64,000 bases of DNA from Planctomycetota bacterium (GTDB lineage: Bacteria > Planctomycetota > Phycisphaerae > Sedimentisphaerales > Anaerobacaceae): the NCBI GenBank assembly GCA_019456195.1, contig VRUK01000010.1, positions 1 to 64,000 of the forward strand, read 5' to 3'. The notes beneath the pieces are model-generated. The model searched no databases. It worked only from the letters and a program-made list of their open reading frames with translations, and had not been told where the DNA came from. Below are positions 7,406 to 14,522 of this stretch, one piece after another. The first letter of the stretch is position 1. Every line of letters begins with the position of its first letter. The translations under genes and the position numbers were made by a program.

Positions 7406-7769
7406 CTTTTTTTATTCCAGCCAGGATTGCGGTTTTTAGCGTGTCTTGGCTGTTTTTATGTCTATGGTTGTCTATGAGAATCTCTTGTTTTCTGCACATT
7501 TTGTCCAAGCTGGTGGACAAGACAAAATTCCCAAAATCCGGCAGGCAATTCAATGCTTTCAGCTCAGCATCCTCAAAGGTTCTTGCGTATGTGTTAAATG
7601 TTAATCGGGGGTCTGAATGGCAGGCAAGTTTCTGGACAACCTTTGCAGGCGTTTGACTGTTCGCAAGGAATGAAATATAACTGTTTCGCAGGCTGTGAAA
7701 ACATATCTCATTGCCGTCTCTGTCCGTCAGTTCAATCTTCGCCACCAGTAAATCTTTTCGGATATGTCC
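7368..7769 (-). pseudogene. Tyrosine recombinase (phage integrase) C-terminal remnant
   Basis: About 133 residues are left of a site-specific recombinase. Visible catalytic elements are the HxLR motif (FHSLRNSY), the second His (LACHSDPRL) and the nucleophile Tyr in TFNTYART. The region with the first catalytic Arg and the whole N-terminal DNA-binding domain are missing. Homology continues upstream of the nominal GTG at 7745 (IRKDLLVAKI matches the family pattern before it), but a TGA at 7770-7772 closes the frame. The 3' end is read into tRNA-Glu and ends with PPRGVEPLSPG, the usual signature of an integrase gene overlapping its tRNA attachment site. The enzyme cannot be active. Confidence 0.8.
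7398..7416 (+). repeat. Candidate att site at the tRNA-Glu end (left)
   Basis: TGGGGGTACTTTTTTTATT covers the last eight bases of tRNA-Glu and the T run behind it. An 18/19 copy stands at 14014-14032 in the same orientation, just before tadA. Together with the integrase remnant this suggests the left boundary of an integrated island. The T-rich half is low-complexity, which limits certainty. Confidence 0.45.
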
Positions 7770-8042
7770 TCACATATTTTCCTTTTTTAGCTACTCTGTT
7801 CAACCAGCAATCATACCTACCAGTACTTTAGTTCTCAGGAATTGGTTCCCACCATAATCCGGTATGGCCACAAGACAGATAACCCCAGAAATCCTCCACC
7901 AACACAGCCTTAGAAAACCATATATTTTCGGATGTTATAGAGTTTACGAAGTTATGTGTTTCCCAAAAATTGCCGATATATTGAAAGCGGGAATATCTTT
8001 TGTGGCTTGGATGAACCAATCTTAATTAAGAGGTGAATCAAA

Positions 8043-8513
8043 ATGAGTGACACTGTTAAACCAAAAAGGCATTGGAGGTTGAAGGCTGAATTGACGGTAC
8101 TTATTTGTATAGTCTGTATCTTGGTTATTAAGTTAGTATTCCCCGACATTAATAGCAGCGAAGGGGGAGTTTTCACGGAGGCTCTACCGATACGGCCAAA
8201 TAGTGCCGATGTATCCGACAAGGCCAGAAAATATTCCAGAAACTTCGATGAACTTCATTCTGTTTATTCACCGAATAACGATAATACAAGTAAATCCGAG
8301 CCAGAGTCATTTGGGTTAGTTACAGGGATATGTTACAGCAGTGACAGGTCATCAGCTGTGATTAATAATAAAACAATAGTGTATGAGGGAGATGCTATTG
8401 ACGGTATCACAATTGTCAAAATATATAAAGACAAGGTTGAATTTACAAAAAACGGCAAGAACTGGATACAAAAGGTAACAAAAGATTTCTATAAAGTTAA
8501 TAATGAGAAATAA
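8043..8513 (+). CDS. Single-pass membrane protein with GspB/MshK-like C-terminal domain
   Basis: The 156-residue product has a short basic N-terminus, one membrane helix (about 18-38: LTVLICIVCILVIKLVF), a polar linker rich in Ser and Asn, and a C-terminal domain from about residue 98. That domain, with ITG-like start GLVTGICYSS, AVINNKTIVYEGDAIDGITIVKI and DKVEFTKNGKNW, has the pattern of the small periplasmic domain of GspB, GspC and MshK proteins in type II secretion and pseudopilus systems. An AAGAGGTG ribosome site precedes the ATG. It lies alone between an integrase remnant and a broken rhuM. No other secretion gene is adjacent; a secretin is encoded 49 kb away. Function is inferred from fold pattern only. 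Confidence 0.6.
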   Translation: MSDTVKPKRHWRLKAELTVLICIVCILVIKLVFPDINSSEGGVFTEALPIRPNSADVSDKARKYSRNFDELHSVYSPNNDNTSKSEPESFGLVTGICYSSDRSSAVINNKTIVYEGDAIDGITIVKIYKDKVEFTKNGKNWIQKVTKDFYKVNNEK

Positions 8514-8588
8514 ACCATCAATTCCTTATATATAAGTCATGCATTTAGAAAACGAGCTTTATAATGCAAACTAAGAAAGACGCTTCAC

Positions 8589-8894
8589 TTATCCCACCGA
8601 AATTATCATATCAAGGTTGTAATGCTTAACCCGCCTGCTGACCTGTCTGCCGCCTTCGGTTTGAACTGTCAAGTATTCCTTGACAACTGAATCTTCCGAA
8701 AGCTCCCCCTCGTCATAAATGTTTTTAATATGGATATTTATATTAGGAATGGTCGTCTGATAGAGCTTCGCCAATCCCGCTTGATTGAGTCATAGCGTTT
8801 CACCTTCCAGACGAACTTCAATTTTCGTCTCACCGCTTTCGGTCTGATAGATAACTATCTCCCCGCCCTTGGGGACTATATTACCCGTAGCCAT
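8589..8894 (-). pseudogene. RhuM-family (virulence/Fic-associated) protein remnant
   Basis: Reading from the ATG at 8894 gives about 34 residues that match the RhuM N-terminus (IVIYQTESGETKIEVRLEGE), then a TGA where the family has the Trp of a VWLxQ motif. The frame continues without shift as LNQAGLAKLYQTTIPNINIH, IKNIYDEGELSEDSVVKEYL and ends at VKHYNLDMIISVG followed by TAA. Intact RhuM proteins are about 330 residues long, so only the N-terminal third (about 100 residues, including the HTH-like part) remains. RhuM genes are typical cargo of genomic islands and restriction loci. This copy is broken by one nonsense codon and a C-terminal deletion. Confidence 0.75.
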
Positions 8895-9025
8895 TATCTG
8901 ACGTCCTCATAAATTATCAATTTATCCCCAAGGGATAGTCAATCGAAAAGTCCCCGGCGGGTTCTTTCTTAGTTTACCCAGAGTTTATCCCCGGGAGTTG
9001 CCAACTTGACTCACAACAGGGGAAT

Positions 9026-9062
9026 GTGAGCTTACTTGCTTTCCTGCCGGGGGCCGGGGGCG
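9026..9062 (+). repeat. Dispersed intergenic repeat, copy A
   Basis: GTGAGCTTACTTGCTTT followed by CCTGCCGGGGG and a second G-rich run. Related copies stand at 13151-13196 and 13787-13871, on the other side of the SIR2 gene and in the same orientation. A degenerate AGTTTACCC occurs just upstream at 8971. Confidence 0.6.
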
Positions 9063-9093
9063 GAGTTACTTTCTCAATTCTGACAGATAGACT

Positions 9094-9239
9094 ACTAGGA
9101 GCGTGTCCGAGTATTCGCTCTCAAAACACGTAAGTCTTTGGTAACAAAGAACTTAATGTTTTTGGGCACAAAACAGCTAAGTCTTGTATCTATAAGTAGT
9201 TATGAATTCCAAAGGCTATTACTCGGACAGACTCCTAGT
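9094..9239 (+). mobile_element. Short element with 20-bp imperfect terminal inverted repeats (MITE-like)
   Basis: ACTAGGAGCGTGTCCGAGTA (9094-9113) is the inverted complement of 9220-9239 with two mismatches. The 106 bases between have no reading frame. Size and structure fit a miniature inverted-repeat element. The right repeat contains the stop codon of the SIR2 gene (9235-9237), so the insertion may have trimmed the end of that gene. No target-site duplication could be identified. Confidence 0.55.
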
Positions 9240-12200
9240 TCTCCCATTTATTGCGTATATCAGAAAATTCTTCGATATCACTACAAATATATCTCCATTT
9301 TTCTATGATTTCCGGAATTGGCAATTCGTTCTTTAAGTAATAGTTATATAACGTATAGGTTAGGGATGCTGCTAGTGATCTAACATCAAGCCGTTTATCA
9401 ATATCCATGGCAGATTGTCGATTCTGTAAACTTGTTTCCTCAATCAGAGAGTTCAGTCCAAATAATATGTCATATAATGATTCTTCCATAATGGTTTCTG
9501 GGAAATTGTTTACAATACTAATACTTAATCTCATTGCATTAATTAAACTCTGGTAATGTCTCCATCTTATTGGCGATACGATATATGACCATATATCGCT
9601 TGGAATCTCTGCTATCTTGTTAGTATTATGCAAAACAAAAATTTGATAAATAGCATTATATCCATCTTCTATTTTTTCTTCCTGTTTTGATAATATGGCT
9701 AACTCAATTTTGTCAAATACATCCTGTCTTTGTTCAGGGAAAATACAAAGACTAGCTGCATGTGTAGCTACACACAGAACGTCATATTTAGAAAGCTCCT
9801 TCAGTAAACGATTTAATTCCTCTTTTATTGAAACCGGAGACAATAATCTTGGGATAATAACACAATTTAGTATCCGAGTGAGATTAGCAAAACGTTTTTT
9901 GAACTCATCGCCGGTGCTACCAAAGAATTTTGCATCATTATCCTTTTTAACAAATTCTTTGTCCGCATCCCACCATTCTAATAACCGATAAAAAATATCA
10001 ACAGCTTCTTGCTCTGACCAATCAATACCGTTGTCGGAGAGAGGTCTTTTTGTTGCTCCTATAAGCTCATAGCAAAAGGGAATATCTCCGCCTGTGATAC
10101 TAATACCTTTTTCTGCTTTTGTCTTTTGTATAGGAAATTTTTCTTGTGCAATATAGTCTTTGAACAAGGATATAGAGTTAATGTTATTTGGATGAGGTAG
10201 CGACTTTAGGAATGCAAACTTATAGAAGTCTGTATTCTTGGGAAAGCCTGTTGACTCATCGGTCTGAGACCAAAGGGCTTCAGAAAATTCTTTGATTTGG
10301 TTTTCATTTAAACCGTTAAGTTTGTGCAACTCGGCGATCCTGTGAATTGCTCTTTTCCTCTTCTCGGAATCGTTAGAATCCGCTTTCTCCAATAAGGAAT
10401 TGATGATACTTTGCTCAATATGAATTTCTTTAAATTTCGCCACATATTCCCTATCTATCGCAATAATTTTGAATGGCTCCAGATACTCGTCTTTTGTGAC
10501 AAGATTTAGATCGTTAGGAATTGGGAATTCTAATAACTGTGACAGCCTTGTGTATTGTTCCTGCGCTGAATAAGAACGCAGCAATCTTATAACTAAATTC
10601 ATTATCCCTTTATATTTATGCTTATGGCTTGATGAATATATTTCTTTGACGAAGCTAAATATTTTATCTTTCGAATTGGTCGAACATTTCATACACAGCC
10701 GTGAAAGAACTTCCGGTATCACATTACCTAAAACAATACCAAAGTTATTTTTAAGGAACGTATCTCCTCTTTCGATTTCAGGCAGCGCCTTCCGAAGGAC
10801 CTCTAAATATTTTTCAATGAGTTCATCCACTTGTTCGGAGGTCATTTTATAAATGGATTCACGATGAAATATGGCATCAGCGATCCTTGAATCCCCAATT
10901 CTTACAAAAGTTGTAATAGCTAAATATGGCGAGTATTTAGTAATTCGCTTCGATGCCCCTTCTGCGGTCTTTTGGCTTATATTAAGCATTGGTATTCTAA
11001 AAGGAATTCCGACTTCTTCACAGTATCGAAGGAATGAGTATGCAGCTAATGCTTCTGTATCTGTTGTACCGAAATGATGGGTAAATGAAATTCCTCCTAT
11101 ATCGAATCCATGTTTTTCGATAGTGGTAGGTGTATAAACTGGGTCTCGTTCCAAACTCCTTTCAAATAATTTCACTTCGTTCCACGGATCACATTTATAT
11201 TGTTTAAGTAAATTCCATCGTTCATTAAATTTTTTCCTGATTTCTTCTCGCTCTTCAGATCGACTATGTCTAAGCATTTTTGCGTCTTTGACATATCGTA
11301 ACAAAAGCATTACGTAAGATTCTCTTGAGACCAATGAATAATCGTTTAAGACTGGAGAAATATTAAGCTGTTTTCTGATGTTACCTAATGATATTTCGAG
11401 TATTTTCTCGGCCTCATTGATGTCACCTAATTCTGCCAATAGTCCGGCTCGCTTAGCTTCCCAAAATGGAAGTGATTCGTTGATAGGCCATAATCTTATT
11501 TGCTCTCTGACATTAGTGATATTAAGTGAAAATAATGCGTAAAGGCATCGCTCATAATGTACCTGTGCTATCAATTTGGGAGATAAAATGGAATAAAGTT
11601 GCTGGATTCGATTGTTTATATTTTCCCACTCTTTTAGATGCCCCTCTTCACGATAAAAACGCATCATAGAAATATGAAGTTCAATCCATTCTACTTCGAT
11701 TTTCTCCCAGTCTAAATTCTTGTGTATCTCGCTGTCCCTTATGACCGAAGCTGTTTCTATTGTTAATTTATCAGGAAATGGATTGTACTTCTCGATCACT
11801 GACTTATAAATGTTAATGTTGTCATTAAAAATAGGGTAAAGGCACTTCTCCAGCCTCCAATTTAACTCATAAATAAATTCAATATCATGAGGGATTTCTA
11901 ATTTTTTACACTGCGTCGAAATGCTTATCCAATATTCTGTGTAAGTCCATAATGAATTACGGCGATCTTCGGGAAGAATAATCCAGTTCGGATATGTTTT
12001 CCTATTCTTTTTCCATTCATTAATGACATTTCTCAGTTGCTGGATAGTCTCTTTCTGAGTATCGGAATACATAAACTTTTGCTTGCCAGGCCATTCAAGT
12101 AGATTGTCTGGTGGCGCAAATAACACCTTTTCCTTCTGAGACCGAATATAATCAAAAAAAACTTTCTGTGCTTTGGCATGGTCACCATTGACATCAGGAA

Positions 12201-12969
12201 AAACAGACATGTCGATTAGAACAATATTTCGTTGTTCTAAAAGTTTTTTCTCTGCATCTGACAAATCGAAGATTCCGATCATAAATATTTTAGGAGAGTA
12301 ATCTTTTCCTAAATTATCCCGAATCCAACCTATCCATTGGAGAAAGTTAGGATCATTTCCGGAAAATCCAACAAGACAAAGTGTGTTTTCTAAAAGCGAT
12401 TGTTGAACTGTATTTACAAAAGGAGCAAAATCTTTTGGGTATTTACGATAATCTTCTTTTGTAATGACAAAAGGACCAGAAGGAAAACTGCCATGCAATT
12501 TAATTATCCTTGGCTTTTTACAACGAGACAATTCTCGTTTTTTATAGACTGTTTCGAATTTCTGATATCCAATGTTTGCGTTAGCACGTTCTAAAAGAGT
12601 GTCATAATTTGTAGTAAACACATCTGTCCATGGCAATTTTAATAAATCCACATGCAGTTCGGACGGCCCATAATCCTTATCAGGAATAAAGTAACACAAC
12701 ATACGGTCTAACGTTGATCGGTCAAAAGTTGCTTCCACTTGGCCAGCCAATTCAAGCACATCCAAATATCGCTGTTCATTTCCAGGTTCCTTACTATTTA
12801 CTTTTTTGTAAAAAATATCCCCAAGTTCATTCCAGTCTGGAAAATCTTTTTGTGAAGGATTATTCTTTTTTGCATTTTTGCTGAAGCCTGCGCCAACCAT
12901 TACTGCAGCATGGTCTGACCACAGCCTTTCGGCAATTTCATTTAAATACTTTTTCATTTCTTCCGCCAT
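9235..12969 (-). CDS. Large SIR2-domain protein, probable antiphage NADase
   Basis: The 1244-residue product has an N-terminal SIR2 domain (about residues 15-285) with all expected motifs: GAGFS at 26-30, TTNYD at 119-123, KLHGS at 157-161 (His159 would be catalytic) and GFSGNDPNF at 201-209. The remaining 950 residues are helical and rich in Lys, Glu and Leu, like tetratricopeptide or armadillo repeats. I see no Walker A motif, so it is not an obvious STAND ATPase of the Avs type. The architecture matches defence-associated sirtuins (DSR class), in which phage sensing by the C-terminal part triggers NAD+ depletion and growth arrest. It is a lone gene, AT-rich relative to its surroundings, inside the tRNA-Glu island. 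Its stop codon lies in a small inverted-repeat element. Defence function is inferred from family and context. Confidence 0.82.
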   Translation of the reverse strand: MAEEMKKYLNEIAERLWSDHAAVMVGAGFSKNAKKNNPSQKDFPDWNELGDIFYKKVNSKEPGNEQRYLDVLELAGQVEATFDRSTLDRMLCYFIPDKDYGPSELHVDLLKLPWTDVFTTNYDTLLERANANIGYQKFETVYKKRELSRCKKPRIIKLHGSFPSGPFVITKEDYRKYPKDFAPFVNTVQQSLLENTLCLVGFSGNDPNFLQWIGWIRDNLGKDYSPKIFMIGIFDLSDAEKKLLEQRNIVLIDMSVFPDVNGDHAKAQKVFFDYIRSQKEKVLFAPPDNLLEWPGKQKFMYSDTQKETIQQLRNVINEWKKNRKTYPNWIILPEDRRNSLWTYTEYWISISTQCKKLEIPHDIEFIYELNWRLEKCLYPIFNDNINIYKSVIEKYNPFPDKLTIETASVIRDSEIHKNLDWEKIEVEWIELHISMMRFYREEGHLKEWENINNRIQQLYSILSPKLIAQVHYERCLYALFSLNITNVREQIRLWPINESLPFWEAKRAGLLAELGDINEAEKILEISLGNIRKQLNISPVLNDYSLVSRESYVMLLLRYVKDAKMLRHSRSEEREEIRKKFNERWNLLKQYKCDPWNEVKLFERSLERDPVYTPTTIEKHGFDIGGISFTHHFGTTDTEALAAYSFLRYCEEVGIPFRIPMLNISQKTAEGASKRITKYSPYLAITTFVRIGDSRIADAIFHRESIYKMTSEQVDELIEKYLEVLRKALPEIERGDTFLKNNFGIVLGNVIPEVLSRLCMKCSTNSKDKIFSFVKEIYSSSHKHKYKGIMNLVIRLLRSYSAQEQYTRLSQLLEFPIPNDLNLVTKDEYLEPFKIIAIDREYVAKFKEIHIEQSIINSLLEKADSNDSEKRKRAIHRIAELHKLNGLNENQIKEFSEALWSQTDESTGFPKNTDFYKFAFLKSLPHPNNINSISLFKDYIAQEKFPIQKTKAEKGISITGGDIPFCYELIGATKRPLSDNGIDWSEQEAVDIFYRLLEWWDADKEFVKKDNDAKFFGSTGDEFKKRFANLTRILNCVIIPRLLSPVSIKEELNRLLKELSKYDVLCVATHAASLCIFPEQRQDVFDKIELAILSKQEEKIEDGYNAIYQIFVLHNTNKIAEIPSDIWSYIVSPIRWRHYQSLINAMRLSISIVNNFPETIMEESLYDILFGLNSLIEETSLQNRQSAMDIDKRLDVRSLAASLTYTLYNYYLKNELPIPEIIEKWRYICSDIEEFSDIRNKWEN

Positions 12970-13111
12970 TTCCTAAATTATCTCGGTTTTATGCAAATCT
13001 CTCTCAAAAACCAAAAAATAACACCAAAAATCGTTAATAGCAACCATTTTTAGACAAAAAATCCCCAATTTATCTTAAAGGGCTCCCATAGGGAAACCAG
13101 CAAAAACTTGC

Positions 13112-13140
13112 CCCGTTAGAGTGTCTTTTACTCTAATGGG
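13112..13140. other. Strong intergenic hairpin
   Basis: CCCGTTAGAGT pairs with ACTCTAATGGG (one G-U) around GTCTTTT. There is no T-tract on either side, so it is not a clear terminator. It lies in the upstream region of the SIR2 gene and next to the dispersed repeats. Confidence 0.5.
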
Positions 13141-13150
13141 ATCTCAACGC

Positions 13151-13196
13151 TGGAGTTTACCCTCGATGTGAGCTTACTTGCTTTTCTATCGGGGGC
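13151..13196 (+). repeat. Dispersed intergenic repeat, copy B
   Basis: It contains the exact 14-mer GGAGTTTACCCTCG (13152-13165), then ATGTGAGCTTACTTGCTTTT and a G-rich end. CCCTCGAT can pair with ATCGGGGG across the loop, so the unit can fold into a hairpin. Confidence 0.6.
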
Positions 13197-13251
13197 TAAA
13201 CGCCGTACGCTATACGAAGTGTCATCTCACGGAGTTTATTTTCGTTTCCCC

Positions 13252-13280
13252 TTGATTTTTCGCTTAAAATATGGTATAAT
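13252..13280 (+). promoter_or_regulatory. Strong sigma-70 promoter in front of a hairpin-rich region
   Basis: TTGATT (13252-13257), 17 bases, TATAAT (13275-13280). The -10 is a perfect consensus with optimal spacing. No reading frame starts close behind it; transcription would begin near 13287 and enter the hairpin train. Confidence 0.62.
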
Positions 13281-13286
13281 GTGTAT

Positions 13287-13440
13287 ATATTAGCCAAAAG
13301 GCTAATGTAAATCGTCGTTATTCGACGAAAAACAGCTATTTTCAGTTTTACTTTTTTACAAACTGCTTAAGTACCCCGGCCAGAAGGCCAAGACCACAGG
13401 GTCAGCAGACCCGGATTCGTGAATCTCGTAGATCCATCCA
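13287..13440 (+). ncRNA. Candidate structured RNA: train of six small hairpins
   Basis: Six stem-loops follow one another: ATTAGCC/GGCTAAT with loop AAAA (13289-13306), TCGTCG/CGACGA (13312-13328), CAGTTT/AAACTG (13343-13365), GGCC/GGCC with loop AGAA (13378-13389), GGGTC/GACCC with loop AGCA (13399-13412) and GATT/AATC with loop CGTG (13414-13425). They sit directly behind a good promoter and no open frame explains them. It may be an independent small RNA or the start of a long leader of tadA. No Rfam family was recognised by eye, and the 3' end is not defined. Confidence 0.42.
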
Positions 13441-13680
13441 ATTAACTAATTTACAAATTCGCTAATTCTCTAATTGGCAAGGTGTTATCAGTGGTTAATG
13501 AAAAAGACAGGTTTAACGAACAGTCCAAAGCCCCAAAAAGGAAACCTACGAAAGAATACGTACGAATTTATAAGCTTTTTATGCAAAACAAACCCAATGT
13601 CAAGTACACGAAAATGAACGTAAACACAATGATAACAATGAGATATGAAAAATTGGACATTTGGTTATTCAGACAAAACA

Positions 13681-13765
13681 AAGCCAATTCAAACCCAATA
13701 AAGCCAAAAACAAACCCAATTCAAACCCAATTTAAGCCAAAACAAACCCAATTCAAACCCAATTT
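13681..13765 (+). repeat. AT-rich tandem repeat, 32-33 bp unit
   Basis: Units at 13701-13733 and 13734-13765 are nearly identical (AAGCCAAAA(A)C followed by two AAACCCAATT-type halves), preceded by a partial unit at 13681-13699. Within each unit CAAACCCAATT itself recurs. The region is open in the tadA frame but reads as low-complexity [13 protein letters not shown] and is not a credible protein. Confidence 0.7.
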
Positions 13766-13786
13766 GCCGAAAAGCCAAAAAATGCT

Positions 13787-13871
13787 GGAGTTTACCCTCG
13801 ATGTTAGCTCACTTGCTTTGGAGTTTACCCTCGGGTGTACTTACCTGTTTTTCTGCCGGGGGTCGGGGGCG
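13787..13871 (+). repeat. Dispersed intergenic repeat, tandem copies C and D
   Basis: The 14-mer GGAGTTTACCCTCG occurs at 13787-13800 and 13820-13833. Copy C is cut after GTTAGCTCACTTGCTTT. Copy D continues through TCTGCCGGGGGTCGGGGGCG. In copy D CCCTCGG can pair with CCGGGGG, a compensating change relative to copy B. Confidence 0.6.
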
Positions 13872-14013
13872 TGGATAAGGAATGTTACGATTATTTTTTG
13901 TGATTTGCTCGCGGAACTTACCACCCTAAAGCATGTCAAAAATCAGCCAATAGGTTGTATTACCGCAACCGATTGTGTTATACTTACGGCCGGTAAACAT
14001 AACAGGGGCCTTC

Positions 14014-14032
14014 TGGGGGTATTTTTTTTATT
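14014..14032 (+). repeat. Candidate att site before tadA (right)
   Basis: TGGGGGTATTTTTTTTATT is a direct copy, with one mismatch, of the end of tRNA-Glu and its T run (7398-7416). It would mark the right edge of a 6.6 kb island and lies ten bases before the tadA start. Confidence 0.42.
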
Positions 14033-14042
14033 GATTAGAACA

Positions 14043-14522
14043 ATGGAAAGTAACAAAGAGGACGAGCGGTACATGCAGATGGCTATATCAGCCGCACAAA
14101 TAGCCGAGGAAAACGGCGATGTTCCTATCGGGGCGGTTATTGTCTATAAAAACCAGATAATCGGTAAGGCATATAATCAGCGAGAGCAGCTTAAAGACCC
14201 AACCGCCCACGCAGAGATTATCGCCCTGACGCAGGCGGCGTCTTTTATCGAAAGCTGGCGATTGCACGACTGCACAATCTATGTAACTTTAGAGCCGTGC
14301 CCTATGTGCGCAGGAGCTTTAGTTCTTGCAAGGATGGACAGGCTCGTTTACGGCTGCGACGATCCGAAGGCAGGTGCGTGCAAAAGCCTGTATAATATTG
14401 TTCAGGATGAAAGGCTCAACCACAGGCTTGAAGTTACCGGCGGTGTTTTAGCTGAGGATTGCAGCAGGTTACTCCAGGAATTCTTTCAACGCCGCAGATA
14501 CGAAAATAATCAGCAGTCGTAA
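14043..14522 (+). CDS. tadA: tRNA-specific adenosine deaminase TadA
   Basis: TadA deaminates A34 to inosine in tRNA-Arg (ACG). The ATG at 14043 gives 159 residues, the normal family length. The zinc site is complete: HAE at 56-58 (Glu58 as proton shuttle) and PCPMC at 85-89 (Cys86, Cys89). The frame is open back to 13482, but that extension consists of translated repeats and is rejected. The ribosome site is weak (GATTAGAACA), which may relate to the island having been placed directly upstream; the T run of the candidate right att site lies 10 bases before the start. Any native promoter would have been displaced, so the promoter at 13252 may now serve this gene. Confidence 0.93.

Follow-up and report, generated by a model that had tools for sequence, protein, structure and literature searches.

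A promoter-led train of hairpins in a planctomycete genome, probably a copy of a dispersed repeat tied to a conserved protein

What is the train of six short hairpins that stands behind a near-consensus promoter, between a SIR2 gene and tadA, in the genome of a Planctomycetota bacterium (Anaerobacaceae; contig VRUK01000010.1)? The 64,000-nucleotide stretch under analysis (positions 1 to 64,000 of the forward strand; hereafter the window) had earlier been read from its letters alone, and the original prediction proposed a possible new small RNA, with a role in the adjacent defence locus or as the leader of tadA as further options. We compared the segment with its copies in the same genome, with those of relatives and with described repeat families.

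The promoter and the hairpin train

The predicted TTGATT-17-TATAAT promoter and the six hairpins behind it are present (Table 1) and, as had also been noted, no long ORF runs across them. A lone match to such a promoter is at the level of chance (two such sites in the region versus 2.7 expected), and the promoter is credible because it is conserved across copies of the segment: all 20 copies aligned, which come from four congeneric species, have TATAAT, and the TTG is nearly invariant. The full 30-nt promoter block is also carried by other genera. As a marker in its own right the block was rejected, since the Clostridia and phage contigs that match it exactly do so at ordinary promoters, which lack the hairpins; thus, by itself it is no evidence of homology outside the order.

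The strand bearing the hairpin train folds at -48.5 kcal/mol (z -4.2), a value equalled by none of 200 dinucleotide shuffles. The reverse strand folds equally well (z -4.4), and hence folding alone cannot choose the strand. Searches of the window against Rfam at gathering thresholds recovered tRNAs only, with no family for the hairpin region; at permissive thresholds the only hit was DicF at an E-value of 9.9.

Table 1. Window positions of the segment, its modules and the surrounding insertion
Feature	Position	Strand	Basis and remarks
Insertion holding the element and the DSR2 gene, tRNA-Glu to tadA	7475–14040		Absent from congener G002
Sigma-70-type promoter TTGATT-17-TATAAT, extended -10 (TG)	13252–13280	+	Sequence; conserved among copies
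Structured leader, covariance model R1 (H1–H5)	13282–13412	+	R1 match, 152.8 bits
H1, ATTAGCC-AAAA-GGCTAAT	~13288–13307	+	Adjoins the inferred transcript start; compensatory changes in 5 of 8 pairs (30 distinct sequences, six genera)
H2, TCGTCG-TTATT-CGACGA	13312–13328	+	Pairing register varies between copies; two pairs changed on both sides (counted register)
H3, CAGTTT..AAACTG, T-rich loop	13343–13365	+	88.6% of cells paired; no double-sided changes
H4, GGCC-AGAA-GGCC	13378–13389	+	97.5% of cells paired; nearly invariant
H5, GGGTC-AGCA-GACCC	13399–13412	+	93.7% paired; double-sided changes in two pairs
H6, GATTC-GT-GAATC	13414–13425	+	Outside R1; sequence; retained in several copies
Spacer, site of the STG ORF in complete elements	13426–13574	+	Repeated in closest copies
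A module, TATGCAAAACAAACCCAAT and array of CAAACCCAATT-like units	13575–13765	+	Array candidates in genome; follows STG genes
M module, short dispersed repeat, tadA side	13781–13869	+	~40 copies in genome

Dispersed copies and covariation of the stems

A BLAST search of the source genome with the element returned 33 matches, and the covariance model R1 found 24 in the 5.8-Mb genome, 22 of them near-complete and only one, that of Table 1, in the window. The idea of a new small RNA thus stands in so far as this is a structured, apparently transcribed segment without an Rfam match, and fails for a small RNA confined to a single locus, given the approximately 22 genome copies. These copies stand in front of genes unrelated to one another and follow one order: promoter, hairpins, spacer and an array of CAAACCCAATT units. 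In the closest copies homology covers promoter, train and the CAAACCCAATT-like array that ends near 13765 without a break; in others the spacers differ and the order is kept, the array following the train in most copies. Upstream of the -35 box each copy is a mosaic built from further short repeats. Relatives in the genus also carry the element, often at contig ends, as is expected because repeats break assemblies.

The array is a separate module, far more abundant than the hairpin leader: the genome holds 116 candidates, and all 40 that were scored match. Most of 20 inspected array copies without the hairpin leader (H) carry another leader, C (TCAAAAACGCTCACTCTTAAAAACAAAAATAAAATTTTC...CTAATTATAGAGGGAGT; at L284, L288, L290, L246 and others), which precedes most of the examined array copies, the HNH-AP2 genes of the genus and the STG gene (see below) of G002. 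A long ORF at 13482–14522 that joins the array to tadA is repeat read-through, and other copies of the element show similar repeat-derived ORFs. A 67-nt repeat (CAATCCTGTTCGGCACAAGGATTGCGGTGTTCTTTATGG...) is identical on three unlinked contigs (L056:6805-6871, L064:8169-8235 and L066:11-77), in two of which it lies at or near the contig end.

Conservation of the stems in homologous regions was part of the test that the original prediction set itself, and in relatives they are indeed conserved. Across the five-helix structure, double-sided compensatory cells number 12 versus 4.4 when shuffled, with 2 of 500 shuffles as high. For H1, double-sided cells number 17 versus 4.1 and the covariation score is 0.297 versus 0.158, a value reached by none of 500 shuffles, and no slid control exceeds 0.122. 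The 30 sequences behind these figures were selected by hand for a four-base loop, a choice that inflates the paired percentage, and kinship among sequences can by itself exceed such shuffles. H4 has little power to covary because it is nearly invariant. Folding of 47 leaders gave a mean z of -2.4, a low estimate because about six of them were anchored on the wrong promoter. In other genera the train is made of different short stems that are still self-complementary, many with AGNA loops. Taken from these alignments, the hairpins appear to be under selection as pairs.

The STG gene and the complete element

The hairpin train is found in other planctomycetes, as the original prediction had anticipated might be checked, and in other genera it stands before a conserved ORF of ~190 aa, which we term STG (MATEAQ.IANRRNAxKSTGPRTxxGKAxxSxNAVKHGLxAR...). 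STG has no match in Pfam, NCBIfam, PHROGs or PDB sequences and was found in no viral contig, and a literature search for planctomycete repeats and the STG motif retrieved no description. Among 161 genomes of the order, 71 carry STG, one of them in as many as 20 copies; G116, of the same family, has about 20 STG genes. Its dN/dS of 0.17–0.28 shows that the gene is under purifying selection.

The STG genes of G020 and G027 have the promoter and train directly 5' and the array 3' of them. An array (at least two units within 450 nt downstream) follows 23 of 30 STG genes; in a comparable set of HNH-AP2 loci BLAST, a criterion that differs from that of the STG count, recovered the array in none. By inspection, promoter and train directly precede STG in at least seven genomes (loci L308, L309, L311, L313, L315, L316 and L321). 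As a test independent of the eye, R1, built only from STG-less copies, was run on the 30 STG loci and matched before STG in L311 (46.5 bits, E = 1.6e-8) and L313 (35 bits, E = 5.4e-6), which belong to two other genera. A third match, in L309 (E = 5.7e-4), has its 5' half misaligned and overlaps the train, and weaker ones coincide with the L316 and L308 leaders or lie near the L305 leader; beyond L311 and L313 the H leader is thus assigned by inspection or by weak model scores. R1 matched none of 27 HNH-AP2 control loci, and on mixed loci it found planctomycete loci only, with no Clostridia or phage locus among the matches listed. The HNH-AP2 endonuclease was itself considered as the partner gene and dropped, as its members in the genus carry leader C and none has the array; in one distant HNH-AP2 family the promoter block precedes the gene.

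These observations bear on whether the approximately 22 loci could each produce a free-standing, trans-acting small RNA, for example a sponge for an RNA-binding protein, with the array and STG incidental. Covarying hairpins, many with an AGNA-like loop, behind a promoter of their own and in several copies per genome would in principle resemble CsrB-type sponges; however, an array follows the train in most copies, other genera have the train as the 5' leader of a protein gene, no conserved terminator was seen 3' of it and the GGA loop motif of Csr RNAs is lacking. We regard such an RNA as unlikely. In STG genes the train lies after the promoter and before the start codon, as a transcribed leader would, which likewise tells against a palindromic repeat of the REP/BIME or MITE kind that acts as DNA, its single-stranded hairpins serving a transposase or recombinase while the promoter only drives the mobile gene. 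The dispersed, intergenic and mosaic modules and the equal folding of both strands would suit such a repeat, but the promoter is kept just 5' of the train in copies, and the one clear Y1/RAYT gene of the genome (PF01797) and a weak fragment have no element modules around them. A RAYT-mobilised REP was rejected on the latter observation, and the DNA-level explanation as a whole seems to us improbable.

The segment instead probably belongs to a non-autonomous, ORF-less copy of a planctomycete dispersed element, the STG element, as its promoter and structured 5' untranslated leader. The homology, number, fixed order and pairing of the copies, together with the leader and array that flank STG in other genera, all established from sequence comparison, point to this reading. 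A complete element would comprise the promoter, a train of short hairpins, the ~190-aa STG ORF and an array of CAAACCCAATT units. RNA polymerase would start near 13287 and read the train; in complete elements the hairpins would fold at the 5' end of the STG mRNA and behind it, ahead of the ribosome-binding site, where they may stabilise or regulate this mRNA. ORF-less copies would keep the promoter and leader, and they may spread in trans, possibly mobilised by STG, or via recombination between repeats, within variable intergenic regions. The window copy, presumably a non-autonomous remnant, would be transcribed into the array and possibly toward tadA.

Compared with the STG element family, the window copy has the order of promoter, hairpin leader and array, with the STG ORF between them absent: neither an ORF nor, by tblastn of STG, a remnant lies between 13425 and 13575. 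The sole STG gene of the source genome has a different leader. No remnant of STG is present in ORF-less copies, so the gene may have been added to a leader–array element that already existed, rather than lost from it. Like a MITE, the window copy is short, dispersed, ORF-less and related to a complete element; inspection by eye of the sppA and tadA junctions, where the ends are placed only approximately, revealed neither terminal inverted repeats nor a target-site duplication. That the element is mobile is suggested by its copy number, mosaic order and the empty sites at tadA and sppA. A bolder, rather doubtful proposal is a SINE-like element with the hairpin train as its active part: the STG protein would recognise the leader RNA, for regulation or copying, and ORF-less leader–array copies would parasitise the STG element, bringing ready-made promoters into accessory and defence islands.

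Insertion sites, neighbouring genes and known repeats

At two sites the element and cargo lie in the same insertion. The interval from tRNA-Glu to tadA measures 6.6 kb here versus ~210 bp in congener G002; the insertion contains an ORF, an M repeat, the SIR2 gene (DSR2) and the element. At sppA, ~30 bp in G002 correspond to an insertion of 3.9 kb here, which holds two ankyrin genes and the element. The tRNA-Glu/tadA site of G005 has other cargo, and of the element it has just a partial copy, inverted and at the tRNA end. The leader of tadA, one of the functions first suggested, is therefore not what the segment is, as tadA of G002 does without the element; tadA, which starts at 14043, has an apparent promoter-like sequence of its own near 13950–13990 (by eye). 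The M module (GAGTTTACCCTCGATGTTAGCTCACTTGC..CTGTCGGGGGC) occurs in direct orientation also at 8971–9053 and 13146–13196, so that direct repeats lie on both sides of the DSR2 gene. An integron-like cassette bounded by M was considered and set aside: M flanks cargo in several loci but is generic, with ~40 copies.

These sites also bear on whether the element could be a regulatory leader or insulator that secures expression of a downstream core gene (tadA, udk, sppA, disA or others) after an accessory insertion upstream. Cargo does lie 5' of the element, and a co-directional core gene begins within ~800 nt of the promoter in ~12–14 of 20 copies, but this excess of orientation is modest and not significant, the downstream genes are unrelated and congeners lack the element at tadA and sppA; we consider this reading very unlikely.

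The gene at 9235–12969 is a full-length DSR2-type SIR2 defence gene (PADLOC Dsr2, 1471 bits). A functional part in its locus had been suggested for the hairpins; this does not hold, as the module stands before unrelated genes in ~22 copies. Strong PADLOC matches just 5' of copies (L050–L069) include DSR2, a DSR1-like gene, a type IIG restriction enzyme, CBASS E1-E2 with JAB and a type II methyltransferase; weaker or partial defence matches also occur there, and the downstream neighbours of copies are core genes. Equally strong matches were found in none of 10 downstream genes, and no matches in 10 other window genes, in a comparison with small controls for which the upstream proteins were picked after viewing (unblinded). 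An enrichment of anti-phage genes 5' of copies is thus a lead, and the element and defence genes may simply collect in variable intergenic regions.

Among known systems, the pneumococcal BOX elements, which with RUP and SPRITE are interspersed, highly structured, in some large copies ORF-bearing and transcribed, and considered parasitic (Croucher et al. 2011, PMC3049150), resemble the STG element as small interspersed repeats with extensive secondary structure. Unlike them, copies of the STG element have a conserved sigma-70 promoter at one end and a long array at the other, and the complete element has a conserved ORF; by description, the level at which the two were compared, no sequence relation is evident. 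REP/BIME palindromes with RAYT transposases, of GTAG and CGTC families, are dispersed in intergenic regions and reported in Planctomycetes too (PMC3733652). A REP stem is a single conserved unit that carries a GTAG or CGTC tag, whereas the STG leader is a train of different stems after a promoter. In this train CGTC is found within H2 alone rather than unpaired at the foot of every hairpin. RAYT-mobilised palindromes flank their Y1 transposase gene, and no RAYT gene is linked to the train. Structured 5' leaders of mobile-element genes, for which the OMEGA/HEARO RNAs of IS200/IS605 may serve as a model, are likewise structured RNAs encoded inside a repeated element, but the STG leader matches neither HEARO nor any other Rfam family, and STG has no match in the family libraries used.

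The feature is thus real, ordinary as a repeat and new as a family. What appeared to be a single small RNA turns out to belong to a previously undescribed Planctomycetota family of interspersed repeats that carry a promoter, tied to a conserved, often multi-copy protein without a family model, and a class of spurious ORFs (MQNKPN... among them) is explained as element sequence. Should the leader be transcribed, every copy would set a strong promoter beside accessory genes, several of which are anti-phage systems.
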